Positions 7,951-60,031 of a DNA stretch of 64,000 nt are shown here, piece by piece (the stretch's first letter is position 1; every line of letters starts with the position of its first letter). The position numbers and the translations under genes were made by a program. The notes below the pieces were generated by a model, which was given only the letters and a program-made list of their open reading frames with translations, searched no databases and was not told where the DNA came from. The stretch comes from Thermoactinomyces vulgaris (lineage in GTDB: Bacteria; Bacillota; Bacilli; Thermoactinomycetales; Thermoactinomycetaceae), in NCBI RefSeq assembly GCF_003688725.1, contig NZ_REFP01000007.1, positions 602,900 to 666,899 on the forward strand. Direction: 5' to 3'.

Positions 7951-8905
7951 AATTGTTCGCTTATTCGTCGAGAATCCGGACGAATCCTTGTCAGGTGAAG
8001 AACTGAGCCGCCGGATCGGATGCAGTCGCGCAGCCGTTTGGAAACAGATTGAAGAGCTGAGGAAACAAGGCTATGAAATTGAGGCCAAACCCCGACAAGG
8101 CTACCGGTTAAGGTACCGCCCCGACCGGGTTGCTCCCGAAGAGATTTATCCCCATTTGCAGACGGAGCGGTTGGGGTGTGAAATCCGATATGTCGAATCC
8201 ACGCCTTCCACGCAAAACATTGCTCATCAATGGGCAAAAGACGGGGCTCCCGAAGGGGCCGTCGTAATCGCGGAGGAACAGGTGAACGGGCGTGGAAGGA
8301 TGGGAAAAGCCTGGCATTCTCCACCAAGGTCGGGGATCTGGATGAGCCTGATTTTGCGCCCTCCCATTTCGTTGGCGGAGGCGTCCCAATTAACCCTGCT
8401 GGCGTCGGTGGGGGTTCAGGAGGCCATTTCGAAAGAAACGAATTTGCCGACAAAAATAAAATGGCCCAATGATATTTTGGTGCAAGGAAAAAAAGTGTGC
8501 GGGATTTTGACAGAAATCCGGGGGGAACACGACCGGATCCACTATGTCATTATGGGGATTGGAATGAATGTCAACACAGAAGCCAAAGATTTTCCGGAAG
8601 AACTGGCGAATGTCGGAACGTCGCTAGCCATGGAGACGGGTCGCAAAATCCACCGCGCTTCTTTGGTGGCGGCATTGTTAAAAGAACTGGAACAAACGTA
8701 TTTCCTTTATTTGCAACAAGGTTTTTCCCCCATTCGAAAAAAATGGGAAGAAAAAGCGGGGATGCTGGGGCAAGTGATCACGGCCCGTTCCACGCAAAGC
8801 ACCATCACCGGTTTGGCAGAACACTTGAATGAACAAGGGGCATTGCTGATCCGGACTTCTTCCGGTGTTGTTCCGGTTTATTCCGCGGAGATCGAATGGC
8901 AATAA
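7928..8905 (+). CDS. birA: Biotin-protein ligase / biotin operon repressor BirA
   Basis: BirA activates biotin with ATP, transfers it to the carboxylase carrier protein and, in class II forms, represses biotin genes. An N-terminal winged helix (about 1-62, ELSRRIGCSRAAVWKQIEEL region) shows this is a class II regulator-ligase. The catalytic domain has GRGRMGK (121-127) and KWPNDI (178-183); a C-terminal SH3-like domain follows. The protein is 325 residues with a TTG start after GGAAGGG. A strong terminator follows immediately, ending the core operon. Confidence 0.95.
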   Translation: MERSIRNEIVRLFVENPDESLSGEELSRRIGCSRAAVWKQIEELRKQGYEIEAKPRQGYRLRYRPDRVAPEEIYPHLQTERLGCEIRYVESTPSTQNIAHQWAKDGAPEGAVVIAEEQVNGRGRMGKAWHSPPRSGIWMSLILRPPISLAEASQLTLLASVGVQEAISKETNLPTKIKWPNDILVQGKKVCGILTEIRGEHDRIHYVIMGIGMNVNTEAKDFPEELANVGTSLAMETGRKIHRASLVAALLKELEQTYFLYLQQGFSPIRKKWEEKAGMLGQVITARSTQSTITGLAEHLNEQGALLIRTSSGVVPVYSAEIEWQ

Positions 8906-8950
8906 AAAACGGACAAGACGAGAAAAAACTCGTCTGTCCGTTTTTTATTT
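8904..8950 (+). terminator. Intrinsic terminator after birA
   Basis: A long stem AAAAACGGACAAGACGAG / CTCGTCTGTCCGTTTTT with an A-rich loop and trailing T run. It separates the core operon from the TetR/coiled-coil operon. Confidence 0.95.
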
Positions 8951-9009: not shown

Positions 9010-9041
9010 TATAATATATCTAAATAGTACGACAACGTACT
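9010..9041 (+). promoter_or_regulatory. Promoter -10 and palindromic operator of the TetR/coiled-coil operon
   Basis: In very AT-rich DNA, TATAAT (9010-9015) is followed by a perfect palindrome AGTACG-ACAA-CGTACT (9026-9041) that would overlap the transcription start, 18 bases before the TetR start codon. A TetR-family protein bound there would block initiation, so autoregulation is likely. No convincing -35 is seen. The half-site GTACG resembles the TACGTA core of the second TetR system at 51.9 kb. Confidence 0.65.
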
Positions 9042-9059: not shown

Positions 9060-9698
9060 TTGGCGGAAATCAAAGGGCAGGAATTATCGCCGATTGACCG
9101 TTTTTTTCAAACGGAAGTGTGTCTCAAAGAGCAGCAGGCGCGGATTTTGTCGGCAGCTGCGAAAGCGCTTTCGAAACGGGGTTATGTTGCCACGACGGTG
9201 AGTGACATTGTCGCATTGGCTCATGCATCCAAATCCACCTTTTACAAGCATTATCCCAATAAAAAAGCGGTGTTGAGCCATCTTTTCGATCTGGTTTCAG
9301 GCGCAGTGGTCCGGCGCGTGGAAAAGAAATTGCGTGATTATCCCCCGACAACGGCAAAACGGACTTATCAGGCGATCAGGGAATATATCGGGATGTGTCT
9401 GACATATCAGGAGCTGGCCAAGCTGCTTTTGATCGATATCATCGGATTTGTCCCGGAGTTGCAGGAAAAACGTGAAGAGATGATGCGATTTTTTGCTGGT
9501 ATTTTCCAAAGGGAATTAATGATGCTTAAAACAGAAAATGAGAAATGGATTATCTCCAATGCCATGGTGGGGGCGATTCATCAAGTGGTGATCCAATCTC
9601 TGTTGTCAGATAAACAGCCGGACGTGGATCACATCGCAACCATTTTGGAAAAAATGCTGAGCAAGATTTTGCGGGAAGAATCGGGAAAGGGGGTGTAA
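9060..9698 (+). CDS. TetR-family regulator of the coiled-coil operon
   Basis: The 212-residue protein has an N-terminal TetR helix-turn-helix (about 25-75, with YVATTVSDIVALAHASKSTFYKHYPNKKAV region) and a helical ligand-binding domain. It is a paralogue of the regulator at 51.9 kb: both carry a VGAIHQVV/VGAINEVV block and the same domain length. It starts with TTG behind GGAGGGGGGAG. It is the first gene of the operon, 5 bases before the first coiled-coil gene, and a palindrome sits at its promoter, so it probably represses itself and the whole operon. The inducer is unknown; the paralogue's setting suggests an acyl or other hydrophobic ligand. Confidence 0.9.
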   Translation: MAEIKGQELSPIDRFFQTEVCLKEQQARILSAAAKALSKRGYVATTVSDIVALAHASKSTFYKHYPNKKAVLSHLFDLVSGAVVRRVEKKLRDYPPTTAKRTYQAIREYIGMCLTYQELAKLLLIDIIGFVPELQEKREEMMRFFAGIFQRELMMLKTENEKWIISNAMVGAIHQVVIQSLLSDKQPDVDHIATILEKMLSKILREESGKGV

Positions 9699-9703
9699 AA
9701 GGG

Positions 9704-10246
9704 TTGCAGAAAAAGCGGGTGGTTTCCGGCTTGATTGCAGCTGTGATCCTTGCCGGGGGAGGTTGGGCCGCCGCCATCAAAGTCCCGTGGTCCGAGATAT
9801 CGTTTGAAGACTTTGATTTAAGTGGAACCCTTGCCAAAATCCATGAAAGAACAGAGCAACTCGGCAATGTAAATCAAGGGATCATTCAGGGGATCCGAAA
9901 GCTGGAAGAGCAATCGGGAAAAACAAAAGAAGTGAATCAAAAGTTGGCCCGGGTGGGAGAGTTGGCCGGCGCCCAGGTGGAACAGCTGAATCAAATCCGG
10001 GTGGTTACCGGCCAGCAAGTCCCGTTGAGCCAAAACTTGCACAGTCTCAGCCAGCGGTTGGCCAAGCAGATGGACACCATTTCCAAAAGCGGGGGAAAAC
10101 AGGCAACGCAAGCGGGCCAATTGAAGAAAATCACGGAACAAACCGAGGCCAATCTGAATGAAGTCTTGCAGCAAAATGAGTTATTGGAGAAAAAGTTGGG
10201 ACAAGCTGCCGAGATGGCCGAACAAGTGAAAAACTCTCTGCCTTAA
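9704..10246 (+). CDS. Membrane-anchored coiled-coil protein A
   Basis: I do not recognise a family. The 180-residue product has a basic N-terminus, one hydrophobic segment (about 7-25) and then about 150 residues of predominantly helical, Gln/Leu-rich sequence with heptad-like spacing (TLAKIHERTEQLGNVNQGI, ELLEKKLGQAAEMAEQVK). It contains no Cys. The topology expected is signal anchor inside, coiled coil outside. A TTG start follows GGGGGTG. It is the first of five consecutive proteins of similar plan; it is 5 bases from the TetR stop and 12 bases from the next gene. Confidence 0.8.
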   Translation: MQKKRVVSGLIAAVILAGGGWAAAIKVPWSEISFEDFDLSGTLAKIHERTEQLGNVNQGIIQGIRKLEEQSGKTKEVNQKLARVGELAGAQVEQLNQIRVVTGQQVPLSQNLHSLSQRLAKQMDTISKSGGKQATQAGQLKKITEQTEANLNEVLQQNELLEKKLGQAAEMAEQVKNSLP

Positions 10247-10258
10247 AGGAGGGAGAAA

Positions 10259-10762
10259 ATGCTGAGGATTATTCAAGTGCTCGGGATCTTGTGCCTGACG
10301 GCTTTGTTGATCAACGGTGTCACCATGACCCAACAGATGAAAAAGATCCAGAGCAGCTTGGACAAAAATTTGAAAGCGGTTCAACAATTGAATCAGGTGC
10401 AGGGAAACATCATTCAAAAGAATGAGGAATTAACCCGGATGACTCAAACGCTGGATCAATTGGACGGTGATTTGAACGGAACCATCCAACAAACGGGAAA
10501 AACGTTAGATTCTTTGTCTGAAGTGGTCCATTACATCAGTGGAAGTTTGGATTTGAACCGTCAAACTTACCAATCTTCCATCAACACCGGCAAAGAGATC
10601 GAAAAAGTGAATCAAACGCTGGCAGAGATGGAACCGCATTTGAAAAAGTTGGATCAATTATTGGGCCAATTATCCAAAACGACGCAAAAAGATCAGGAGC
10701 ATATGAAGCGGTTGAATGAGTCGACGGAATCCTTAAACGGGAAAATTCCGGGAGTGAAATGA
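10259..10762 (+). CDS. Membrane-anchored coiled-coil protein B
   Basis: Unrecognised 167-residue protein. A hydrophobic segment (about 4-22, IIQVLGILCLTALLINGV) anchors it; residues 24-160 are helical with regular Leu/Ile/Met positions (LKAVQQLNQVQGNIIQK, MTQTLDQLDGDLNGTI). The tail KIPGVK is basic. A GGAGGGAG site precedes the ATG. The stop overlaps the start of gene C in ATGA, so the two are probably translated together in fixed ratio. Confidence 0.8.
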   Translation: MLRIIQVLGILCLTALLINGVTMTQQMKKIQSSLDKNLKAVQQLNQVQGNIIQKNEELTRMTQTLDQLDGDLNGTIQQTGKTLDSLSEVVHYISGSLDLNRQTYQSSINTGKEIEKVNQTLAEMEPHLKKLDQLLGQLSKTTQKDQEHMKRLNESTESLNGKIPGVK

Positions 10763-11298
10763 GCATGAGTAAATCATCATTGGGTTTATCCGCATTAACT
10801 TGTGTTTTGCTGATTGTGCTTGCCGGAAACACTTGGCTGCAATTGGGGCTTCAGGATCGCATTGCCAGCGATTCCAAAAAACTGAAAGAAACGCTGGATC
10901 AATCGGCGGCAAAGTCTGAGCAAATGAATAAACAATTGGAAACGATTGCTGTCATCAAGCAAAAAACAAATCAGTTGCAACATAAAATCACGAAAATTCA
11001 AAACAATACAGGGGAATTGGAGGGGGAGTTGATCCAATTAGATCAAGTGGTGGCGTCGATTGCGGATCATGTTGAATGGATCGGAAAAGAGACCAATGCC
11101 ACCACGGCCGGCTTAAACGGGATCAAGACATCTCTTGCCAACAGTGCCGGGTATTTGCAGTCCATGGCAGAAAGCAATCAGAAAATCCGCCAGTCACTTG
11201 CCAATATGGTATCGACACAAAAAGAAATCAACAAAAATTTGGAAGAAATGAATTACAAGACGGATTTCATCCCTCCGCTCAGGGGGAAAGAACAATGA
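10759..11298 (+). CDS. Membrane-anchored coiled-coil protein C
   Basis: Unrecognised 179-residue protein with an anchor at about residues 8-28 and a helical coiled-coil region to about 165, ending in a proline-containing tail (FIPPLRGKEQ). Two starts are possible: ATG 10759 overlapping the previous stop, or ATG 10765 with a better distance to GGGAG. The stop overlaps the start of gene D (ATGA). Asn/Gln/Ser/Thr are enriched at polar positions, as in its neighbours. Confidence 0.78.
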   Translation: MSMSKSSLGLSALTCVLLIVLAGNTWLQLGLQDRIASDSKKLKETLDQSAAKSEQMNKQLETIAVIKQKTNQLQHKITKIQNNTGELEGELIQLDQVVASIADHVEWIGKETNATTAGLNGIKTSLANSAGYLQSMAESNQKIRQSLANMVSTQKEINKNLEEMNYKTDFIPPLRGKEQ

Positions 11299-11948
11299 AA
11301 AAATCATGGAACCGGCACCATGTGAAGACAGGATTGATCGGACTTTTGTTGGTTCTTTTGAGCATGCCGTTTTTAAGCGGATTCAGCGACCATGTATTGC
11401 TTACTTCGTTATCCAAGTATAACATTTTTCAAATCACCAAAGATCTGGTGGGATTGACAGACCGCATGATTGATGAGACCGAAGCTTTGGAGGATCAGGT
11501 CAAACAAGCGGGGCAGTCTTTGGGGGTGTTGGATCGGCAATTGACATTGGCGGATCAACAAATCCGGATCAACCAAGGCATCCGTTCGGAGCTTGAATCG
11601 CAATTGCAGGGAAATATATCCGCCCGCGACAAGATGGAGGAAATCTTGATCCGGCAAAAGGAAACCTCCGCCTTGACGGGGCAAGTTTCCGCAAGAACAA
11701 ACGAAATATCCGGACAGATGGAGCAAGTGATCGGGGATTTGGGCAATGTTGCAGCCGTCACCGGAGACATCGGGAAAAACAGTCAGCAACTTCACCCGCT
11801 GATGGATGATTTGATGGTGGAATTAAACAAATCGTATGACAATTTGCGTTTCATCCGGCGGATTGTTGAATGGCTGGATGATCTCAAAAGAAAGATCGGC
11901 CTGAGTGGTTCCGGATCCGGTCAGACGACAGGGGGGGGAGTCACATGA
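11295..11948 (+). CDS. Membrane-anchored coiled-coil protein D (largest)
   Basis: Unrecognised 217-residue protein. The N-terminus is basic (KKSWNRHHVK), the hydrophobic segment spans about 11-30, and a longer helical region runs to about 200, ending in a Gly/Ser-rich tail (SGSGSGQTTGGG). The ATG at 11295 is chosen because it overlaps the upstream stop and is followed directly by a normal signal-anchor; the frame is open further upstream but without membrane-type sequence. It differs from its neighbours by a short hydrophobic stretch after the anchor (FSDHVLLTSLSKYNIF). Its stop overlaps gene E (ATGA). Confidence 0.78.
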   Translation: MKKSWNRHHVKTGLIGLLLVLLSMPFLSGFSDHVLLTSLSKYNIFQITKDLVGLTDRMIDETEALEDQVKQAGQSLGVLDRQLTLADQQIRINQGIRSELESQLQGNISARDKMEEILIRQKETSALTGQVSARTNEISGQMEQVIGDLGNVAAVTGDIGKNSQQLHPLMDDLMVELNKSYDNLRFIRRIVEWLDDLKRKIGLSGSGSGQTTGGGVT

Positions 11949-12457
11949 GGATACCATGGCTGATCGCTAATGTGGTATTGTTGATCTTATTTGGAGCCGG
12001 TACCTATCAACAAATTGTAAACCAAAAAAATACGAACCTGGTGATGGAAGAAGTTTACCAAAATATTTCCCGCTCCAGAGCGTTGACAGAACAGACAAAC
12101 CGGCATTTGGCCCCGCTTTCACAAACGGCCGCCGTGATGCAAGAGATGAATCAACAATTGTCGGATACGAAAAAGCGCCTGAATCATATGAATGAGAAAA
12201 TCGGGCGGGTGAATGCCAGTGAACAAAAGATTATCACCGGCTTGGATGAATTGAACGAATATACCAAAAATGTATATGAAGGATTAGGGGAAATTTCCTC
12301 TCAAAACAAAGAAATCAAGCAGTTGAGCCAAACCATTTCCGAACAGTCAAACCGTGAGAATCGAAGTTTATTGGACTTATCCAAACTTACTCGTCAATCG
12401 ATTCAAGAATTAAATCAATTAAATAAAAAACTGGCATGGCTTGGTTTATTGCCTTGA
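11945..12457 (+). CDS. Membrane-anchored coiled-coil protein E
   Basis: Unrecognised 170-residue protein of the same plan: anchor at about 4-20 (PWLIANVVLLILFGAGTY), then helical, Gln/Asn-rich sequence with heptad-like hydrophobics (EQTNRHLAPLSQTAAVM, IKQLSQTISEQSNREN) to a hydrophobic end (LAWLGLLP). The start overlaps the gene D stop. The four consecutive overlaps or near-overlaps (B-C, C-D, D-E) point to coordinated synthesis of subunits of one assembly. Confidence 0.8.
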   Translation: MRIPWLIANVVLLILFGAGTYQQIVNQKNTNLVMEEVYQNISRSRALTEQTNRHLAPLSQTAAVMQEMNQQLSDTKKRLNHMNEKIGRVNASEQKIITGLDELNEYTKNVYEGLGEISSQNKEIKQLSQTISEQSNRENRSLLDLSKLTRQSIQELNQLNKKLAWLGLLP

Positions 12458-12476
12458 TCACGAAGGAGTTTCCGGC

Positions 12477-12644
12477 ATGTTTTTCAGTATGCTATATTTG
12501 GTGGATATTTTGGGAACCGTGGGTTGTGCAGCGATGGCAATCTATGCTGTCATCCGGCAGCGTCCGATGATTCAGTGGTTGTGGAGGCTGATTTTCATCA
12601 ACCTGATTTATCTTGCAATAACTGGAATCAGTTTGTTGTTTTAA
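12477..12644 (+). CDS. 55-residue two-helix membrane protein F
   Basis: A small protein with two predicted transmembrane helices (about 5-23 and 32-54) joined by a basic loop (VIRQRPMIQWLWR). It is preceded by GAAGGAG 7 bases before the ATG and is followed within 10 bases by the operon terminator, so it is the last gene of the TetR/coiled-coil operon. It could be a membrane partner or assembly factor for the five anchored coiled-coil proteins. No family is recognised. Confidence 0.8.
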   Translation: MFFSMLYLVDILGTVGCAAMAIYAVIRQRPMIQWLWRLIFINLIYLAITGISLLF

Positions 12645-12653
12645 CCACAAAGG

Positions 12654-12686
12654 ACCCGGATTCCTATTAAAATCCGGGTTTTTTTA
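12654..12686 (+). terminator. Intrinsic terminator of the coiled-coil operon
   Basis: Stem ACCCGGATT / AATCCGGGT with an 8-nt loop and seven T. Confidence 0.93.
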
Positions 12687-12720
12687 TGGTTATATAAGAA
12701 ACATTCATTTCAAATATTAT

Positions 12721-14032: not shown

Positions 14033-14185
14033 CATGAAAATATTGCATTCAGGAGGAAGATCCGATACGTTAAAAGAGATAGGCAACATCTGTGGAAGAG
14101 TTGCACTATCGTTTTCCTGTTTTTTTTCAAAAGGTCAATATTTGAGTTTATGAATCTGCTTCGAGCCATTGGGACGGGGACAGAA

Positions 14186-14246
14186 AGGTAACGGATACCT
14201 GCGCCTTTTTTCGTCTCGGGTGGATGACGAATAAAAGGCGTTTTTT
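14186..14246 (+). promoter_or_regulatory. Structured panB leader: small hairpin plus terminator (possible attenuator)
   Basis: A small hairpin AGGTA-ACGGA-TACCT (14186-14200) is followed at once by a strong terminator-like stem CGCCTTTTTTCGTC / GACGAATAAAAGGCG (14202-14240) with a T run, only 38 bases before panB. No gene precedes it after the nupC terminator, so the terminator must act on the panBCD leader transcript. The pan RNA motif, a stem with bulged A residues, is known from 5' leaders of panB/panC/panD genes; I cannot confirm that this is one. Confidence 0.55.
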
Positions 14247-51909: not shown

Positions 51910-52548
51910 ATGATGGAAATGCTTCATGTAACCAAAATGCCAACAGAAGCAAAAGACAAGTTACTGTATGCAGCTCTTCAACTGTTTACCACCAAAGGCT
52001 TTAAAGAGACCTCGATCCTTGAAGTGGTGGAACAGGCAAGGGTGTCCAAAACGACTTTTTACCGCTTTTTCCGCAGCAAAGAAGAATTGCTTGTCTGTTT
52101 GTTTGAACTGTTGGCCAACGAAGTTCTGAAGGAAGTGGAGGAAGCGGTTCGCCGGGAAGAGCAAATTGCGTACAAGGGGTATGCCGGCATACGCCGTTAC
52201 ATCGAGATTTGTGTGAATCGTTCAACCGTTGCGAAATTATTGTTGGTGGAGTCTGTCGGGGTGAGTAAGGCAGTCGAACGAATGCGCCGGACAGCGCACC
52301 TGAGATTTGCCGGCTTGATTGACCGGATCGTGCAAGAGATTCTCCCGCCAGCCAAACAAAACCAGGATGCCCGGTTCATTTCGCAAGCAATGGTTGGAGC
52401 GATCAATGAAGTCGTGATGCAAAATCTTTTCCAGTCTGATGAAAAAATCGACACGGACCACTTGGCACGGTTGTTAAACCGGATCATGGTCAGTTCGTAT
52501 GTCAACTTTTCGTTTGGGAAATCAGCTGGAAACGTGGTTCGCCAATAG
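51910..52548 (+). CDS. TetR-family regulator of the acyl-CoA operon
   Basis: A 212-residue regulator with an N-terminal helix-turn-helix (FTTKGFKETSILEVVEQARV and SKTTFYRFFRSKEELL) and a ligand-binding domain similar to the TetR at 9.06 kb. FadR-like TetR repressors in Bacillus respond to acyl-CoA; that ligand is inferred here from the neighbours. It probably binds the operator at its own promoter and the inverted copy after its gene, and so represses itself and the catabolic genes. GGAG precedes the ATG by 5 bases. Confidence 0.92.
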   Translation: MMEMLHVTKMPTEAKDKLLYAALQLFTTKGFKETSILEVVEQARVSKTTFYRFFRSKEELLVCLFELLANEVLKEVEEAVRREEQIAYKGYAGIRRYIEICVNRSTVAKLLLVESVGVSKAVERMRRTAHLRFAGLIDRIVQEILPPAKQNQDARFISQAMVGAINEVVMQNLFQSDEKIDTDHLARLLNRIMVSSYVNFSFGKSAGNVVRQ

Positions 52549-52566
52549 GCCTGTCTTTGGACAGGA

Positions 52567-52590
52567 AGTACCAGTACGTATCGGTATCAA
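52567..52590. promoter_or_regulatory. Second operator copy, before the acyl-CoA dehydrogenase gene
   Basis: AGTACCAGTACGTAT (52567-52581) is the exact reverse complement of 51882-51896. With its flank it forms TACCAGTACGTATCGGTA (52569-52586), palindromic except for two transition pairs. It lies between the TetR stop and the dehydrogenase ribosome site. Confidence 0.8.
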
Positions 52591-52606
52591 ACGGAGGGAT
52601 GCCATC

Positions 52607-53779
52607 ATGTCAGGAACCAATAAGGAAGCAAATCCTGGACTTTGTTTCCAACTTTCTGATGAACAATTGGAGCTCAAAAAGTGGGCGCATGGATTTGCAG
52701 AAAAAGAGATCCGCCCGATCGCGGCCGAGTATGACGAAAAAGAAGAGTTCCCCATGCAAGTTTTGGAAAAAGCTGCGAAAGCCGGCTTAACCAGCTATGC
52801 GGCTCCGGCGGAATACGGAGGGGGCGGGCTGACCAGCGTGATGGCTGCTTGCCTGATTGCCGAGGAGTTGTATTGGGGATGTGCGGGAATTGCCACTTCG
52901 CTGATGGTGGCGGGGTTGGCCGGATTGCCTCTTTATTATATGGGAACGGAAGAACAAAAAAAGAAATGGATCCCGTTCTTGTGTGATCCGGAAACCCCGC
53001 GGATGGGAGCCATGGCACTGACTGAGCCGGGCGCTGGTTCCGATGTCAAAGCGATTAAAACCCGCGCCGAAAAAGACGGCAACGAATGGGTGATCAACGG
53101 ACGGAAATGTTTCATCACCAATGGCGGCATTGCCGATTTGTACGTCGTTTTTGCACGGACCATTCCGGATGCGGGTTATCACGGGGTGTCGGCTTTTATT
53201 GTCCCTAAAGGAACGCCGGGGCTTTCCGGAGGGAAAAAAGAGCGAAAAATGGGAATTCGGGCTTCTCATACCGGAGATGTGATTTTTGAGGATGTCCGCG
53301 TTCCGGAGGAAAACCTGCTGGGAGAAGAGCACATGGCATTCTTCGGGGCCATGCAGATGTTGGAAAAATCAAGACCGGTAGTGGCTGCCGGGGCTGTCGG
53401 TGTTGCCCGGGCTGCATATGAATATGCATTGGAGTATGCAAAAAACCGGGTGCAATTCGGGCGTCCCATCATCAAAAACCAGGCGATTTCCTTTATGCTT
53501 GCACAAATGAAAACCAAAATCGAAGCGGCCCGCCTGCTGACTTATCGCGCGGCCGATCTGGCAGACCGGGGGGAACCCTGTACGACCGAAGCCAGTATGG
53601 CCAAAGCATTCGCAGCCGAAACAGCCATGGAAGTCACGACCAATGCGGTGCAAATTTTGGGCGGATACGGTTATATGCGGGATTATCCGGTTGAAAAGTG
53701 GATGAGGGATGCGAAAATCCTGTCCATTTATGAAGGAACCACACAAATTCAATATAAAGTGATCACCAACAGTTTCTAA
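52607..53779 (+). CDS. Acyl-CoA dehydrogenase
   Basis: FAD enzyme introducing the 2,3 double bond into acyl-CoA. The 390-residue protein has the N-terminal helical domain, the middle beta domain with MALTEPGAGSDVKAIKTRA and WVINGRKCFITNGG, and the C-terminal domain with RVQFGRPIIKNQAISF, QILGGYGYMRDYPVEKWMRD and IYEGTTQIQ, where the Glu is the catalytic base position of this subgroup. ATG 52607 with GGAGGG 8-10 bases upstream gives the usual length; the longer frame would run through the operator. First enzyme of the operon. Confidence 0.94.
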   Translation: MSGTNKEANPGLCFQLSDEQLELKKWAHGFAEKEIRPIAAEYDEKEEFPMQVLEKAAKAGLTSYAAPAEYGGGGLTSVMAACLIAEELYWGCAGIATSLMVAGLAGLPLYYMGTEEQKKKWIPFLCDPETPRMGAMALTEPGAGSDVKAIKTRAEKDGNEWVINGRKCFITNGGIADLYVVFARTIPDAGYHGVSAFIVPKGTPGLSGGKKERKMGIRASHTGDVIFEDVRVPEENLLGEEHMAFFGAMQMLEKSRPVVAAGAVGVARAAYEYALEYAKNRVQFGRPIIKNQAISFMLAQMKTKIEAARLLTYRAADLADRGEPCTTEASMAKAFAAETAMEVTTNAVQILGGYGYMRDYPVEKWMRDAKILSIYEGTTQIQYKVITNSF

Positions 53780-53805
53780 ACATTATCAATATGAAGGGAG
53801 AAATG

Positions 53806-54162
53806 ATGATGAAAGACTTGAGCATTCATGAAATTTTCGAAAAAATCGAGCAGGCGTTAAATGAGGATTCCAAGCCGATTGAAGGAATGAATGCCGTTTA
53901 TCAATATGATCTCACAGGCGAAGAAGAAGTCACCTATCAGCTGCAATTGTCCAATGGTCAAGCCAAAGTGGAGAAAGGTTCACCGGCTGAAGCGGATTGT
54001 GTGTTGCAAATGAAAATCGATGATTTTAAAGAATTGCTTTTGGGAAATCTGAGCGGAACCGCAGCGTTCATGTCCGGGAAATTGAAAATCAAAGGAAATA
54101 TCGGTGCTGCGATGAAGATGGAAAACTTGCTCCGTCAATATGACGTAAGCAAATATGTATGA
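53806..54162 (+). CDS. SCP-2 sterol-transfer domain protein
   Basis: A 118-residue single-domain protein of the SCP2 family, which binds lipids, acyl-CoAs or sterols in a hydrophobic tunnel. The C-terminal pattern ADCVLQMKIDDFKELLLGNLSG, then FMSGKLKIKGNIGAAMKMENLL is typical. Placed between the dehydrogenase and ligase genes, it could shuttle acyl substrates. The start is ambiguous among three consecutive ATGs (53803, 53806, 53809); spacing to AAGGGAG favours the second or third. Confidence 0.9.
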   Translation: MMKDLSIHEIFEKIEQALNEDSKPIEGMNAVYQYDLTGEEEVTYQLQLSNGQAKVEKGSPAEADCVLQMKIDDFKELLLGNLSGTAAFMSGKLKIKGNIGAAMKMENLLRQYDVSKYV

Positions 54163-54228
54163 TTTCAGTTCCCGGTCCGGACCGGGAACTGCCTCAGGCG
54201 TCATATCACTGCTTCTGGAGGGCTGCCA

Positions 54229-56085
54229 ATGAAAAACCAAAATCTGGTGGAAATGGTATGGCGCTCCGTTGAAAAATATCCGGACAATATCGCACTGAAG
54301 TGGAAAGAAAACAACACTTACCAAACACTCACTTATCAGAATTTTTGGAACCGTATTCAATGGGTGGCCGCAGGATTGTATCGTTTCGGGGTCCGGAAGG
54401 ATACCAAAGTCGGCATCCTTTCCAACAATCAATACAAATGGCCCATTGCGGATCTGGCTGTCGGCAGTTTGGGGGCTGTCAGCGTGCCGGTCTACCCGTC
54501 CCTTCCTGCGGACCATGTCAACACCATTTTAAAACAAGCAGACTGCGAAGTGGTTTTTGTAGAGGATGAAGAACAACTCCAAAAAGTCATCCATGGCCAA
54601 AACGATGTCCATACCATTATTTATATGGGATTCAGAGAATATTCAGGAAATAACGGGAATATCGTCACCTTTTCTTCCTTGGAGCGCCAAGGAAAGGAAC
54701 ACCCGCTGGATCAATGGTCAGAGATTTGGAAAGCAATCGGGCGCGATCAACTGATGACCATCATCCATACATCCGGAACGACGGGTGTTCCCAAGGGTGC
54801 TATGTTAACACACGGAAATTTTTTATCCAATATTGAGGGAATTCAAATTTGGTGCATGGAAGCCCGGCACGATGACATTTTCTTGTCCTATCTGCCGCTG
54901 GCGCATGTTTTTGAACGAATGGCCGGACAGTTTATGCCGTTATCGGTCGGGGCCACGATTGCTTATGCAGAAAGCCTGGAGACGATCCCGCAAAATCTGT
55001 TGGAGGTTCGTCCCACGGTGATGACCAGTGTGCCAAGGCTTTTTGAAAAAATTTATGCCCGCGTCCAAGAAGAGATCCAATCGGGGACACCGATCCGCCG
55101 TGCGGTTTTTGAATGGGCTCTTAAGATCGGGGAAAAACGGTATGAACTGTACACCAGCAAGCCGGCTGATTATTTGATGATGCATGATTTGCCGCCGAAT
55201 CTGAAATGGAAATGGAAAATTGCCGACAAGCTCGTTTTTCAGAAGATCAAATCGCAACTGGGCGGGCGGCTGCGCGGTTTGATTTCGGGCGGGGCTGCTT
55301 TGAATCCCGACATCGCCCGGTTCTTTTGGGCGATTGATGTGCCGGTGTTGGAGGGATACGGACTGACCGAAACCTCACCGGTGATCAGTGTCAATCCGTT
55401 TTCCCGTGCCCGGATCGGAACTGTGGGGCTGCCGCTGCCCAACTTGGAAGTCAGTATCGCCGAGGACGGCGAAATTTGGGTTCGCGGTCCCAATGTGATG
55501 CAAGGGTATTACCGAAATGAGGAAGCAACCGCCAATCAGTTCCACAACGGATGGTTGAAGACAGGGGATCTGGGTGAAATCAACGAGGAAGGTTATTTGA
55601 AAATCACGGACCGGAAAAAACGGCTTTTGATATTGTCCACCGGAAAAAATGTGAGTCCCCAACCGGTGGAAAATGCGATTTGCGCCAGTTTGTACATCAA
55701 CCAGTGCTGTTTAATCGGCCAAGACCGAAAATACACCACCGTGTTGATCGAACCTGATTTTGAACAGCTGGTCCCTTGGGCAAAGAAGAAGAATTTGCCT
55801 GCCGATTCCCGTGAGAAGCTGGTCGAATGCGAAGAAGTGAAAACGCTTCTTCAAAACGAGATCAAGCAGGCGGTCAAGAATTTCCCCCGTTATGAACGGC
55901 CCAAAAAAGCTTGGATATCCGGACGGGAGTGGACAGAGGAAACCGGAGAGATCACGCCTTCATTGAAAGTACGGACACATGAGATCGAAAAAATTTATAA
56001 AAATGAAATTGCCCAAATGTACGGGGATGTTTCTCATCCGCGCATGATTATTTTAGAATCCGCAAAGCAAGGAGGTACATCATGA
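54229..56085 (+). CDS. Long-chain acyl-CoA synthetase (AMP-forming, FAA1 type)
   Basis: Activates a carboxylic acid with ATP and CoA. The 618-residue protein has the P-loop IIHTSGTTGVPKGAMLTHGN (A3), SYLPLAHVFERM, EGYGLTETSPVISVN (A5), GWLKTGDLGEINEEGYLKITDRKK (A7-A8) and a C-terminal domain with GKNVSPQPVENAI. Length and the FERM-containing motif place it with long-chain (FAA1/FadD15-like) ligases. SDR starts 4 bases before its stop. Confidence 0.94.
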   Translation: MKNQNLVEMVWRSVEKYPDNIALKWKENNTYQTLTYQNFWNRIQWVAAGLYRFGVRKDTKVGILSNNQYKWPIADLAVGSLGAVSVPVYPSLPADHVNTILKQADCEVVFVEDEEQLQKVIHGQNDVHTIIYMGFREYSGNNGNIVTFSSLERQGKEHPLDQWSEIWKAIGRDQLMTIIHTSGTTGVPKGAMLTHGNFLSNIEGIQIWCMEARHDDIFLSYLPLAHVFERMAGQFMPLSVGATIAYAESLETIPQNLLEVRPTVMTSVPRLFEKIYARVQEEIQSGTPIRRAVFEWALKIGEKRYELYTSKPADYLMMHDLPPNLKWKWKIADKLVFQKIKSQLGGRLRGLISGGAALNPDIARFFWAIDVPVLEGYGLTETSPVISVNPFSRARIGTVGLPLPNLEVSIAEDGEIWVRGPNVMQGYYRNEEATANQFHNGWLKTGDLGEINEEGYLKITDRKKRLLILSTGKNVSPQPVENAICASLYINQCCLIGQDRKYTTVLIEPDFEQLVPWAKKKNLPADSREKLVECEEVKTLLQNEIKQAVKNFPRYERPKKAWISGREWTEETGEITPSLKVRTHEIEKIYKNEIAQMYGDVSHPRMIILESAKQGGTS

Positions 56086-56915
56086 ATCTTCCACTCAAAG
56101 GAAAAGTGGCGGTTGTCACCGGGGCTTCCCGCGGTTTGGGGAGAATGGACGCTTTGAAGTTGGCAGAAGCCGGAGCCGATGTGGTGGTGACGGATATTTT
56201 GATCGAAGAAGACGAGAAATTGGAGGAAAAGTCCGAACAGTACGGGCCGATGTCCCAAATCATGGCTCAATCCAAAACCATTTACACCAAATCTACGGCC
56301 AAACAAATTGAAGAAATGGGACGGCGCTCGGCGGCATACCGGATGGATGTCACAGATCGGGAAGAAGTCCAAAAGGTCATGGCTGAAATCAAAGACAGGT
56401 TCGGTCGGATTGACATCTTGGTCAACAATGCCGGAACCTTGGATCATACAGCGCGTTTGGAACATCAGAATGATGATTTTTGGGACCGGGATTTGAAGGT
56501 GAATTTGACCGGAGCTTACAACTGTTCCAAAGCGGTTTGGCCCTATATGAAAGAACAGAAATGGGGACGCATCATCAATATGGCTTCTGTGGCCGGAACC
56601 TTGGGAGGATACGGACAAGCCAGTTATTCAACCACCAAAGCGGGAATCCTGGGCTTGACCAAAACCTTGGCTTTGGAAGGGGCCCGGTACAATATTACGT
56701 CCAATGCCATTGTGCCGGGAATTATCAATACGGAGGCTTTTCAATACACCAACCCGAAAATGCGGGAGCGCATGATTGAACGGACGGCTTTTAAAAGACC
56801 GGGGGAACCGAAGGATATTGCATATGCCATCGTGTTCTTGGCATCAGATCAGGCCAAATACATTACCGGGGTCGGACTTCCGGTTGCAGGCGGAATCGAT
56901 CTGTTTACTTTTTGA
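56082..56915 (+). CDS. SDR-family 3-hydroxyacyl-CoA dehydrogenase-type oxidoreductase
   Basis: A classical short-chain dehydrogenase of 277 residues: TGASRGLG (13-20), NNAG (115-118), and the catalytic Ser169, Tyr182 and Lys186 (SYSTTKAG). Residues 41-80 form an unusually long, charged insertion after the second beta strand. By position it would oxidise the 3-hydroxyacyl-CoA made by the hydratase in the same operon, a step for which no HAD-type dehydrogenase is present here. Start overlaps the upstream stop. Confidence 0.88.
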   Translation: MNLPLKGKVAVVTGASRGLGRMDALKLAEAGADVVVTDILIEEDEKLEEKSEQYGPMSQIMAQSKTIYTKSTAKQIEEMGRRSAAYRMDVTDREEVQKVMAEIKDRFGRIDILVNNAGTLDHTARLEHQNDDFWDRDLKVNLTGAYNCSKAVWPYMKEQKWGRIINMASVAGTLGGYGQASYSTTKAGILGLTKTLALEGARYNITSNAIVPGIINTEAFQYTNPKMRERMIERTAFKRPGEPKDIAYAIVFLASDQAKYITGVGLPVAGGIDLFTF

Positions 56916-56935
56916 TGAAGAAAGGAGAGAAAAGC

Positions 56936-58090
56936 ATGAGTGACCGCGATGCAGTGATCATTGATGCCATCCGGACACCGATCGGGCGGAAAAAAGGAAC
57001 ACTCTCGACGGTCCGGCCTGATGACATGGCAGCTTTCGTCCTGCAAAAGCTGGTGGAGAAAAACCAATTGAATCCGGCAGAAGTGGAAGACATTAAAATG
57101 GGATGCGTCACGCAAATCGGCGAGCAAGGATACAATATCGGCAGAATGGCCGGCTTGATCGCAGGGTTTCCGGTGGAAGTGTGCGGAGTGAGTGTCAACC
57201 GGATGTGTGCTTCCTCTTTGGAAACCGTTGCCCAAGGGGCTCATGCCATCATGGCGGGGATGGCGGATTGTGTGATCGCGGCCGGGGTTGAAAGCATGAA
57301 CCGGGTCCCCATGGGCAGTGACGGCGGCAGTTTCAGCGACCGGCTGTTGTCCAAATACAACATTATTCCGCAAGGGCTCTCAGCGGAAATGATTGCCGAA
57401 AAATGGGGAATCTCCCGTGAGGAGATGGACGAATTTTCATTGCACAGCCATGAAAAGGCACTGGTTGCACAACAGGAAGGACGTTTTGACAACGAGCTGG
57501 TGCCGGTGGAAATCAAAGGAGATAAAGGGGAATGGGTAAAACTGGACAAGGATGAGACGCCCCGGGCCAATACCAGTTTGGAAGCACTGGCTCAATTGTC
57601 GCCTTCCTTCCGTCCCGACGGCAATGTGACACCGGGAAATTCCAGCCAGATCAGTGATGGTTCGGCCGCTGTTTTGCTCACCTCCCGCCGGAAAGCCAAA
57701 GACTTGGGGCTCGTTCCGAAAGCCCGGGTGGTTGCCACACAATTGGCTGGTGTGGAGCCGGATATCATGCTGACGGGGATCATTCCCGCCACCCGAAAAG
57801 TGTTGGACCGTGCCGGTTTAAGCTTGGATGACATCGGGGTGTTTGAAGTCAATGAAGCGTTTGCTTCGGTGGTTCTTGCCTGGGAGCGGGAGATCAAACC
57901 GGACAAGGAAAAAGTCAACCCCAACGGAGGCGCGATTGCATTGGGGCATCCCCTCGGAGCCAGTGGTGCCCGGATTATCGCGACATTGGTCAATGAGCTG
58001 GAACGCCGAAAGGAACGTTACGGGTTGGCCACGATGTGCATCGGATTTGGAATGGCGCTTGCAGTCATTATTGAACGGGAGGAAGACTGA
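56936..58090 (+). CDS. Acetyl-CoA acyltransferase (thiolase)
   Basis: Cleaves 3-ketoacyl-CoA with CoA. The 384-residue thiolase has nucleophile Cys91 in VNRMCASSLETV, GHPLGASGARI with the His, and the second Cys in TMCIGFGMALAV. CASS and CIGFGMA differ from the common CGSG and CGGGQG, so this is a divergent subgroup. ATG 56936 follows AAAGGAG. The stop overlaps the hydratase start in TGATG. Confidence 0.93.
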   Translation: MSDRDAVIIDAIRTPIGRKKGTLSTVRPDDMAAFVLQKLVEKNQLNPAEVEDIKMGCVTQIGEQGYNIGRMAGLIAGFPVEVCGVSVNRMCASSLETVAQGAHAIMAGMADCVIAAGVESMNRVPMGSDGGSFSDRLLSKYNIIPQGLSAEMIAEKWGISREEMDEFSLHSHEKALVAQQEGRFDNELVPVEIKGDKGEWVKLDKDETPRANTSLEALAQLSPSFRPDGNVTPGNSSQISDGSAAVLLTSRRKAKDLGLVPKARVVATQLAGVEPDIMLTGIIPATRKVLDRAGLSLDDIGVFEVNEAFASVVLAWEREIKPDKEKVNPNGGAIALGHPLGASGARIIATLVNELERRKERYGLATMCIGFGMALAVIIEREED

Positions 58091-58872
58091 TGGAGTGGAA
58101 GCAATTTTTGGTGGAGATTCGCGATCAGGTTGCACGGATCACCATCAACCGCCCGCCAATGAATACGCTGAGCCGGGATGCCCTTTTTGAATTGGGTTCC
58201 ATTCTGGATCAGCTGGAAAAGGATCCGTCCGTCCGGAGTTTGATCCTCACCGGGGCGGGAGAGAAAACTTTTTCCGCCGGTGCGGATGTTTCCGAGTTTG
58301 GCGGAATGGGGGATCGGGAACAGGCAGAAGGTTTTTTAAAACAAATCCATGATTTATTCAACCGGATTGAAAACTTCCCCAAACCGGTGATTGCCGCCAT
58401 CAACGGGAAAGCGTTGGGCGGCGGGAACGAATTGCAAATGGCTTGCCATTTGGGGATTGCCGCCGACCATGCCGAACTCGGGTTGCCGGAAGTCCGGTTG
58501 GGGATCATGCCGGGTTATGGAGGGACACAGCGGTTACCACGTCTGATCGGGCAAAGGCGCGCTTTGGAAATCATGCTGGAAGGAAAAAGAATTTCCGCAC
58601 AGGAAGCATTGGAAATCGGACTGGTCAATAAAGTTGTGCCGGCGGAACAGTTGGCCGAAGAAGCGTTTGAATGGGCCAAACAATTGGCCGAAGGACCGCC
58701 CGTTGCCATGAAAGGAATCATCCAATCGGTCATCAACGGGAGCCGGAAGGAATTAACAGAAGGGTTAAAAGTCGAACGCGAGAACATGCTGGCCGTGATG
58801 CGCACGGAGGATGCCATTGAAGGAGTTGCCGCTTTCTTTTCCAAACGCAAACCGTCTTTTAAAGGAAAGTAA
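58090..58872 (+). CDS. Enoyl-CoA hydratase
   Basis: Crotonase-fold enzyme hydrating 2-enoyl-CoA. The 260-residue protein has the oxyanion-hole blocks FSAGADVSEFG (61-71) and ALGGGNELQMACH (108-120), both catalytic glutamates Glu114 and Glu134 (GLPEVRLGIMPGYGGTQRLPR), and the C-terminal helical trimerisation part. It directly follows the thiolase gene with a one-base overlap. Confidence 0.95.
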   Translation: MEWKQFLVEIRDQVARITINRPPMNTLSRDALFELGSILDQLEKDPSVRSLILTGAGEKTFSAGADVSEFGGMGDREQAEGFLKQIHDLFNRIENFPKPVIAAINGKALGGGNELQMACHLGIAADHAELGLPEVRLGIMPGYGGTQRLPRLIGQRRALEIMLEGKRISAQEALEIGLVNKVVPAEQLAEEAFEWAKQLAEGPPVAMKGIIQSVINGSRKELTEGLKVERENMLAVMRTEDAIEGVAAFFSKRKPSFKGK

Positions 58873-58875
58873 TAT

Positions 58876-58910
58876 CGGCACACAAGCCTCCCGGACAGGG
58901 AGGCTGTGCC
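58876..58910 (+). other. Stable hairpin between the hydratase and reductase genes
   Basis: GGCACA-CA-AGCCTCCC pairs with GGGAGGCT-GTGCC around a short loop. There is no T run, so it is not a normal terminator; it may stabilise or process the operon mRNA. Confidence 0.5.
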
Positions 58911-58936
58911 TGCATTTCATTTAAAGGGGGGATCCT

Positions 58937-60031
58937 ATGCCTTCACATACTTACTTTTTTACCGGTTTCCCCGGATTTATTGCCACCAGGCTGGTTGAAA
59001 AGTTGTTTGACCAGGATCCGTCTTCCCGATTCCTGCTGTTGGTTCACCCCAGCCAACAGGAGAAGGCGGAAAAGGTGATTTCGCAATTAACGCAAAAGAA
59101 AGCAGGGTCCAGAGGATGTTTCATCCCGATCCCCGGCGACATTACCAAGGAAAATTTGGACATCCCGCAGCAACGCATGGAACGCCTCCGGGAGGAGATC
59201 GATTATGTTTTTCATTTGGCCGCGATTTATGACTTGGCGGTTTCCAAGGAGACCGCCTATAAGGTCAATGTGACCGGCACCCGAAATGTAAACGATTTCG
59301 TCTTAAGTTTATCCGGATTGAAGCGGTACGTCTATTTCAGTACCGCTTATGTATCGGGCAAGCGGACCGGCCGGATTTTGGAGACTGAATTGGATGAAGG
59401 ACAGTCTTTTAAAAACCATTATGAAGCGAGCAAGTTTGAAGCGGAGGTTATCACTCAGAAGATCATGAAGCAAGTGCCTTTGACAATCATCCGGCCGGGA
59501 ATTGTCATGGGAGATTCCAAAACGGGGGAAACGGTCAAGTTTGACGGACCTTACTTTGTGATGCGTTATTTGGACAAATTTTCCCGTTTCCCCATTCCTT
59601 ATCCGGGCCGGGGGAAAGCCTTGTTAAATCTCGTGCCGGTGGATTATATCGTGGACGCAACGTGTTATTTGGCCACGCATCCGGTGGGGGAAGGAAAAGT
59701 GTATCATTTGACCGACCCCAACCCTTATCCGGCCCGGGAAGCGTTCGGTATCATTTGCGAGACACTGGTTGGAAAGAAAGCGTCCTTTACGCTGCCCTCT
59801 TTCATTGTATACGGTTTGCTTTCAATCCCCGCGTTTCGAAGGTGGTTGATGGTGGAAAAAGAGACCATCGAATACTTTCGCCTGAAGGCGGAATACGATT
59901 GCTCACAAGCGTTGGAAGATTTAAAAGATTCAGGGGTCAAGTGCGCGGATTTTAAAGATTACATTCAGGTTTGTGTCAAATTCTATGAAAATCACCGGCA
60001 TGATCCGGACAAAATGATTGAAGTGCGGTAA
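58937..60031 (+). CDS. Extended SDR / fatty acyl reductase-like NAD(P)-binding protein
   Basis: A 364-residue protein of the NAD_binding_4 (male sterility/acyl reductase) type. The cofactor motif is TGFPGFIATRLV (8-19; G-x2-G-x2-A), followed by PGDITKENLDIP, FHLAAIYDLAVSKETAYKVNVTGTRNV and the catalytic YFSTAYVSGKRTG plus YEASKFEAEV (Tyr and Lys in YEASK). It lacks the second domain of plant-type acyl reductases. With an acyl-CoA operon a role in reducing an acyl thioester or oxidising a hydroxyl is likely; the direction is not known. A strong terminator follows. Confidence 0.85.
   Translation: MPSHTYFFTGFPGFIATRLVEKLFDQDPSSRFLLLVHPSQQEKAEKVISQLTQKKAGSRGCFIPIPGDITKENLDIPQQRMERLREEIDYVFHLAAIYDLAVSKETAYKVNVTGTRNVNDFVLSLSGLKRYVYFSTAYVSGKRTGRILETELDEGQSFKNHYEASKFEAEVITQKIMKQVPLTIIRPGIVMGDSKTGETVKFDGPYFVMRYLDKFSRFPIPYPGRGKALLNLVPVDYIVDATCYLATHPVGEGKVYHLTDPNPYPAREAFGIICETLVGKKASFTLPSFIVYGLLSIPAFRRWLMVEKETIEYFRLKAEYDCSQALEDLKDSGVKCADFKDYIQVCVKFYENHRHDPDKMIEVR

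Follow-up and report, generated by a model that had tools for sequence, protein, structure and literature searches.

In Escherichia coli, the outer-membrane barrel FadL delivers long-chain fatty acids and a membrane-associated acyl-CoA ligase traps them (the FadL-FadD system), and in mycobacteria the lipid importer Mce1 is made of MCE proteins A-F, YrbE and MceG and encoded in an operon with fadD5. The coiled coil of cartilage oligomeric matrix protein (COMPcc) is a short homopentamer in animals. We know of no dedicated conduit for long-chain fatty acids across the thick Gram-positive envelope. A paper on the fad genes of S. aureus contained none of the transport terms that were looked for. 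The system considered here lies in a 64,000-nucleotide stretch of the Thermoactinomyces vulgaris genome (the window, from an assembly of 2.56 Mb), where a TetR gene, R, is followed by six genes, A-F, of which A-E encode coiled-coil rods. This five-rod set, whose members resemble rulers in their fixed length, is inherited as a unit in many Gram-positive bacteria and tied to a long-chain acyl-CoA ligase in most of its relatives, which suggests an undescribed machine for fatty-acid uptake or handling.

Because of two published structures, a stalk that carries fatty acids is plausible. In a preprint, Mce1 is a six-subunit helical needle reaching about 225 Å with fatty-acid-like density inside, and its needle modules are described as kinked and unrelated to six-helix coiled coils (PMC9882608). 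A study of COMPcc describes a pentamer whose axial channel binds long-chain fatty acids, with Met, Thr/Asn and Gln layers that form a gate, a water chamber and a trap, respectively (PMC3487892).

A preliminary description, made from the letters of the window, had placed six genes behind one TetR gene and between two terminators. The open reading frames, their lengths and their order were all borne out (Table 1), with terminator-like hairpins bounding the operon on both sides, and the three ATGA overlaps it named are present at 10759 (B/C), 11295 (C/D) and 11945 (D/E). Conservation of gene order in other genomes, proposed there as a check, was found throughout: A-E occur in this order on one strand in 34 of 34 loci (the window plus sets of 17 and 16, scored together). 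A search with the D protein (threshold E ≤ 0.001) matched 19 of 121 genomes including the window's own, and 17 of the 18 other matches carry A-E; the remaining genome (G057, locus L043; G and L numbers denote genomes and loci) lacks it. An E profile run over 398 genomes of the class matched 38, with 33 strong matches (E 3.4e-29 or better) spread over ten families of one Bacillota class and five weak ones. The same profile run over 398 phylum-wide genomes, a sample holding few genomes of the class, matched the window's own genome only. Carriers include Lihuaxuella thermophila, Thermoactinomyces daqus, Paenactinomyces guangxiensis, Marinithermofilum abyssi, Melghirimyces profundicolus and one metagenome bin. 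Of the weak matches, G273 yielded nothing readable, G244, G094 and G108 were left out of the locus counts, and G091 contains a decayed ligase-A-B-C-E operon (L090 6744-9182), which was read as loss in progress. Single members are also damaged elsewhere, B of L037 being split over two frames and both A and B of L079 being broken. In two distant carriers, an exported-looking SLH-domain protein and a subtilase are encoded upstream of the set (L074 5708-7027, L040 4282-5766).

Each of A-E begins with one N-terminal hydrophobic segment, which is followed by a rod, and the shared plan put forward in the preliminary description, a hydrophobic helix and then heptad-like sequence, is upheld by the periodicity of the rods. 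In all five families the hydrophobic period is 3.48-3.49, a strength matched by 0 of 300 permutations, and the 3.5-residue period of canonical heptads extends over the whole rod. Best heptad paths gave 40, 40, 39, 42 and 41 core layers for A to E, with two or three register breaks each. Positional entropy is 0.93-1.19 bits in the core versus 2.35-2.60 bits elsewhere. The core layers include Leu, Met, Thr, Asn and Gln, and the flanking e and g positions are mostly intermediate, with only moderate charge and many Asn, Ser, Ala, Thr and Gln residues, a character that would fit bundles of at least four helices. Across 32-34 orthologues and 143-170 aligned residues, the numbers of rows with an internal indel were 0, 0, 1, 1 and 0 for A to E at a mean identity of 32-36%, whereas the ligase discussed below, at 52% identity, has 6.1 indel events per row; this difference argues that rod length appears to be under selection. 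For these alignments, B rows exclude L037 and L079 (broken genes), A rows exclude L041 and L079, fused A proteins were trimmed to their last 190 residues and the A and D of L039 to their last 175 and 300, and the tool alignment of D excludes L039. At a helix rise of 1.5 Å per residue, about 140 residues correspond to about 21 nm of helix. AlphaFold, given seven-row alignments, returned a single helix for E (predicted local distance difference test score, pLDDT, 73.5) and a helix at residues 44-201 followed by a low-confidence tail for D (confidence 65.5).

Comparison of family profiles indicates that A, B, C and E are paralogous, with C and E related end to end. The pair scores were 97.8% for C-E, 94.9% for B-C, 93.7% for A-C and 93.6% for A-B, and pairs among these four families ranged from 82 to 98% in the forward direction versus 2-43% for all ten reversed controls. 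With smaller alignments the scores were 96.9 for C-E, 81.2 for B-C and 53.8 for A-B, the B-C and A-B matches being partial in length. In orthologues of D, motifs such as TPTLA-KWSD at residues about 20-35 resemble signal-peptidase sites by eye. The N-terminus of D in these orthologues may be a cleavable signal peptide, with D released from the membrane.

The lipid link, which had been drawn from the regulator, proved stronger than claimed, and the unit is larger than was first seen. An AMP-binding long-chain acyl-CoA ligase belongs to it in 24 of 34 loci, being encoded directly upstream of A in 12 and fused to A in 12. PF00501 scored 279-290 bits in the three ligases scanned with it, and motif scans covered 21 of the 24 (10 adjacent and 11 fused; L033, L038 and L083 were excluded): all 21 contain TSGT(T/S)G and TGD, and 20 of them contain the A10 lysine motif, which the pattern did not find in L081. 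The fused proteins consist of the ligase, a linker usually ending in a basic cluster, a membrane helix and rod A. By the established positive-inside rule, this layout would make the ligase cytoplasmic and the rod external. Ligases adjacent to A carry a hydrophobic C-terminal membrane tail. A survey of 61 related genomes gave 30 ligase loci, of which 29 were readable (L124 was not), and the tail occurs in 9 of 9 ligases beside A and B versus 0 of 20 elsewhere (Fisher p 1e-7), a statistic to be read with the genomes not being independent and three of the 20 (L133, L134, L136) being too short to judge. Genomes G004 and G025 have a tail-less ligase at apparently the same site, among what we take to be YgzB-like, perR-like and nth-like genes, and neither has gene C; an apparent C match near the G025 ligase was rejected because it falls in a different frame of a DPENPPTDP-type repeat gene. 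In a ligase tree, the unfused f19 ligases fall among the fused ones, and the tree does not settle the order of fusion and fission. Overall, the association of the ligase with the rod set is well supported.

The small protein F follows as a further member. A gene of 55-60 residues resembling F lies 3' of E in all 22 non-fused loci and in 1 of the 12 fused ones, and its scarcity in the fused clade may be one loss event. Eight distant F genes were first picked by position and size, and the count used profiles built from these genes; distant and near F profiles show a weak likeness (hhalign 18%), which does not prove homology of the distant F. The 55-residue length given for F in the preliminary description holds if ATG 12477 is the start; the protein has 67 residues if the upstream TTG is used.

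We hypothesize that A-E are five subunits of one heteromeric parallel coiled-coil stalk, which would be anchored in the cytoplasmic membrane by the N-terminal helices and reach about 21 nm outward, with F as a small membrane partner. The stalk would pass long-chain fatty acids, or a lipid like them, from outside the cell along or inside itself to the ligase at the inner face, and the ligase would trap the substrate as acyl-CoA by vectorial acylation, ATP use thereby pulling fatty acids in. A heteromeric stalk delivering long-chain fatty acids to an inner ligase is in our judgement the best explanation, with the chances for and against it evenly balanced. The hetero-oligomer, the fatty-acid substrate and the inward direction are what we infer, as are uptake, a pentamer and a channel. 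A more specific and rather doubtful proposal is that five rods of equal length assemble 1:1 as a parallel heteropentamer and that its axial channel, with Leu, Met, Thr, Asn and Gln layers as its lining, would be a 21-nm fatty-acid conduit across the monoderm wall zone onto the ligase, which in some species is built into one strand.

Several observations weigh against such a stalk. Ten of the 34 loci, the window included, have no ligase adjoining A-E, so a dedicated ligase is not obligatory, and the tail is weak in the f19 ligases (hydropathy 1.31-1.66). The profiles give no clear sign that D is paralogous to B, C or E, and B-D scores 10.3% forward versus 41.9% reversed. Cross-correlation between families found no register shared by the polar layers in the cores of the five rods. 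For the hetero-oligomeric bundle of the preliminary description, the equal numbers of core layers, the near-absence of indels, the conserved core and the paralogy speak indirectly in its favor, and the shared register of polar layers did not materialize. The AlphaFold confidences are moderate and come from single chains, which are silent on partners. Moreover, the unit holds no permease or energy source besides the ligase.

The same machine could also serve other traffic, namely acyl-chain remodelling or salvage from the cell's own lipids, or export of acyl products, rather than nutrient import. The ligase indicates only acyl-CoA chemistry at the membrane, and a TetR gene stands beside the unit in just 8 of 34 loci, so catabolic regulation is not general. 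However, ATP-dependent acylation is established to trap its substrate inside, and the window's regulator is paralogous to the TetR heading a beta-oxidation-type operon; we consider such traffic unlikely. An equally unlikely alternative is a structural scaffold, in which rods of fixed length would set the distance between membrane and wall, or keep the ligase within membrane domains, and would not themselves carry lipid. A scaffold would be consistent with rods whose surface varies around a conserved core and at a conserved length, and with the persistence of sets without an adjacent ligase in the ten loci mentioned, but a general spacer has no obvious need of five diverged subunits or of fusion to a fatty-acid enzyme.

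The rods might further be read as a sensor in the envelope, constructed along the lines of a chemoreceptor stalk, that would detect lipids or membrane stress. A weak match of the C profile to coiled coils of methyl-accepting chemotaxis proteins (MCPs) in PDB (E 3.8e-6) hints at such a role, and long heptad bundles of similar composition are common to both. The match reflects coiled-coil composition, however, and the E profile matches designed coiled coils instead. MCP coiled coils lie in the cytoplasm as antiparallel four-helix bundles that have signalling tips, whereas the rods have one predicted helix per chain and no signalling domain was seen in them; nor was a HAMP, kinase or output domain seen in the unit. 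For these reasons a sensor is very improbable.

Table 1. Positions, in window coordinates, of the rod operon and of related features.
Feature	Position	Strand	Evidence or remark
Terminator-like hairpin of the preceding birA gene	8902..8950	+	Sequence; scan stem 8916-8935
Palindrome AGTACG-N4-CGTACT, presumed TetR operator	9026..9041	.	Also 5' of TetR in four other genera, with at most one change
R: TetR-family regulator, 212 aa, TTG start	9060..9698	+	Open reading frame; Pfam TetR_N 48 bits
A: N-terminal membrane helix and coiled-coil rod, 180 aa	9704..10246	+	Open reading frame, heptad analysis
B: membrane-anchored coiled-coil rod, 167 aa	10259..10762	+	Open reading frame, heptad analysis
C: membrane-anchored coiled-coil rod, 179 aa; paralogous to E over its full length by profile	10759..11298	+	
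D: coiled-coil rod and low-confidence C-terminal tail, 217 aa	11295..11948	+	
E: membrane-anchored coiled-coil rod, 170 aa	11945..12457	+	Predicted one continuous helix 3-168
F: 55-aa two-helix membrane protein, conserved 3' of E	12477..12644	+	
Terminator-like hairpin with T tract	12650..12690	+	Hairpin 12654-12679 then T7, read in sequence
Lone F-like gene, 59 aa	22814..22993	-	Hidden Markov model 32 bits, E 5.5e-8
TetR paralogue of R (35%), heads acyl-CoA operon	51910..52548	+	
Long-chain acyl-CoA ligase of acyl-CoA operon, 618 aa, intact, no membrane tail	54229..56085	+	

For the hairpin at 12654-12679 the scan listed the minus strand only, and the plus-strand call comes from reading the sequence. 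The NCBIfam model nearest to R is that of Bacillus FadR (NF053878), although its score of 42 bits is far under the equivalog cut-off of 200. Immediately ahead of the TetR gene, the presumed operator occurs unaltered or with one change in 5 of 6 genomes compared (L030 lacks it), and in the window's genome it is unique at up to one mismatch. The TetR count of 8 loci was made by profile, that of L074 being included without reading by eye. The paralogous TetR at the acyl-CoA operon, named in the preliminary description, was recovered at 35% identity. Sites before that operon have two mismatches and are within chance expectation (9 found at three mismatches or fewer, 5.9 expected). The operon (51910-60031) encodes the TetR, an acyl-CoA dehydrogenase-like protein, an SCP2 protein and the ligase, followed by SDR-like and thiolase-like genes, and it also contains an enoyl-CoA hydratase-like gene and an NAD_binding_4 (male-sterility type) reductase; the "-like" names come from reading the open reading frames. 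A pan RNA motif (RF01749) lies at window positions 14080-14187, upstream of panB.

The dedicated ligase is absent from the window's operon, and its place is probably taken by the soluble ligase encoded in the acyl-CoA operon, which a paralogous TetR heads. That this 54-kb ligase is itself the relocated operon ligase was rejected: other genomes, including G002, G010, G026, G029-G031 and G033, hold both a tailed operon ligase and a second full-length ligase, and the two second copies that were read, those of G026 and G033 (L139 and L138), are tail-less. Judged from these comparisons, the 54-kb ligase is more likely a separate paralogue. The window's genome also holds a 486-aa ligase relic without the TSGTTG, TGD and A10 motifs (L099 1462-2922 (-), G000:C9:58455-59822); an nth-like gene lies close to it. 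Short copies of the ligase, about 450-515 aa long, are also present in G001, G002, G010, G019 and G022. The lone F-like gene of the window is flanked by an amino-acid permease gene and a helix-turn-helix gene, and at the corresponding place Thermoactinomyces daqus (L026) has the F of its whole operon, gene order having been compared by eye. This lone gene is probably what remains of an operon that stood there earlier, so that the copy at 9 kb would have moved or been regained.

No known family claims the proteins, as the profile check proposed in the preliminary description showed. A-F have no Pfam or NCBIfam family at curated cut-offs, and 18 E orthologues of one alignment have no Pfam match at 1e-5. 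Weak matches in Pfam, NCBIfam and PADLOC to known coiled-coil families (SMC, Rad50, FliJ, DUF948, MCP, JetC), under curated cut-offs where these exist, were rejected and are typical of coiled-coil composition. Among solved structures, the matches were confined to designed coiled coils, chemoreceptors, viral fusion proteins and an engineered SNARE. MlaD was not among the best 25 Pfam matches of any of A-F, and neither the MCE domain (MlaD, PF02470) nor the YrbE/MlaE permease (PF02405) was found in nine carrier genomes, with controls positive in 4 of 14 known genomes for each. Membership in the Mce family was rejected because of these absences; the comparison with Mce drawn earlier holds as a plan and fails as kinship.

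No published description of the set was found in the PMC literature, where most subscription papers are missing. The five-rod set appears to be new as a system; its mechanism stands at about an even chance. The conserved seven-gene unit of ligase, five rods and F would be a concrete, deletable candidate for a Gram-positive fatty-acid conduit, and the ligase-rod fusions open an unusually direct way into its structure and into the engineering of fatty-acid uptake. If the stalk proves to be real, it would show that evolution can arrive convergently at a long needle like that of Mce, using a plain heptad coiled coil. A heteropentameric conduit would in that case amount to a needle of the Mce kind built from ordinary coiled coil, with neither MCE domains nor an ABC pump.

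Mce1 is among the closest described systems in plan. Paralogous membrane-anchored helical genes in fixed order are found here as in Mce-type systems (34 of 34 loci, with the paralogy of D unclear), and the hosts of the rod set are monoderm, unlike that of Mce1. Both systems have several paralogous subunits, each with one membrane helix and a long helical part of about 20 nm directed outward, and both have a link to an acyl-CoA ligase and a proposed fatty-acid route (PMC9882608). The differences are that the rods number five rather than six, that no MCE domain, YrbE or portal was found, that the heptads are canonical, and that the ligase is fused to the rods or tail-anchored beside them. COMPcc resembles the rods as a heptad bundle with Leu, Met, Thr and Gln core layers; the rods are membrane-anchored and about 140-150 residues long. 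With the FadL-FadD system the rod set would share trapping by the ligase, and the coiled-coil rods would stand in for the FadL barrel.

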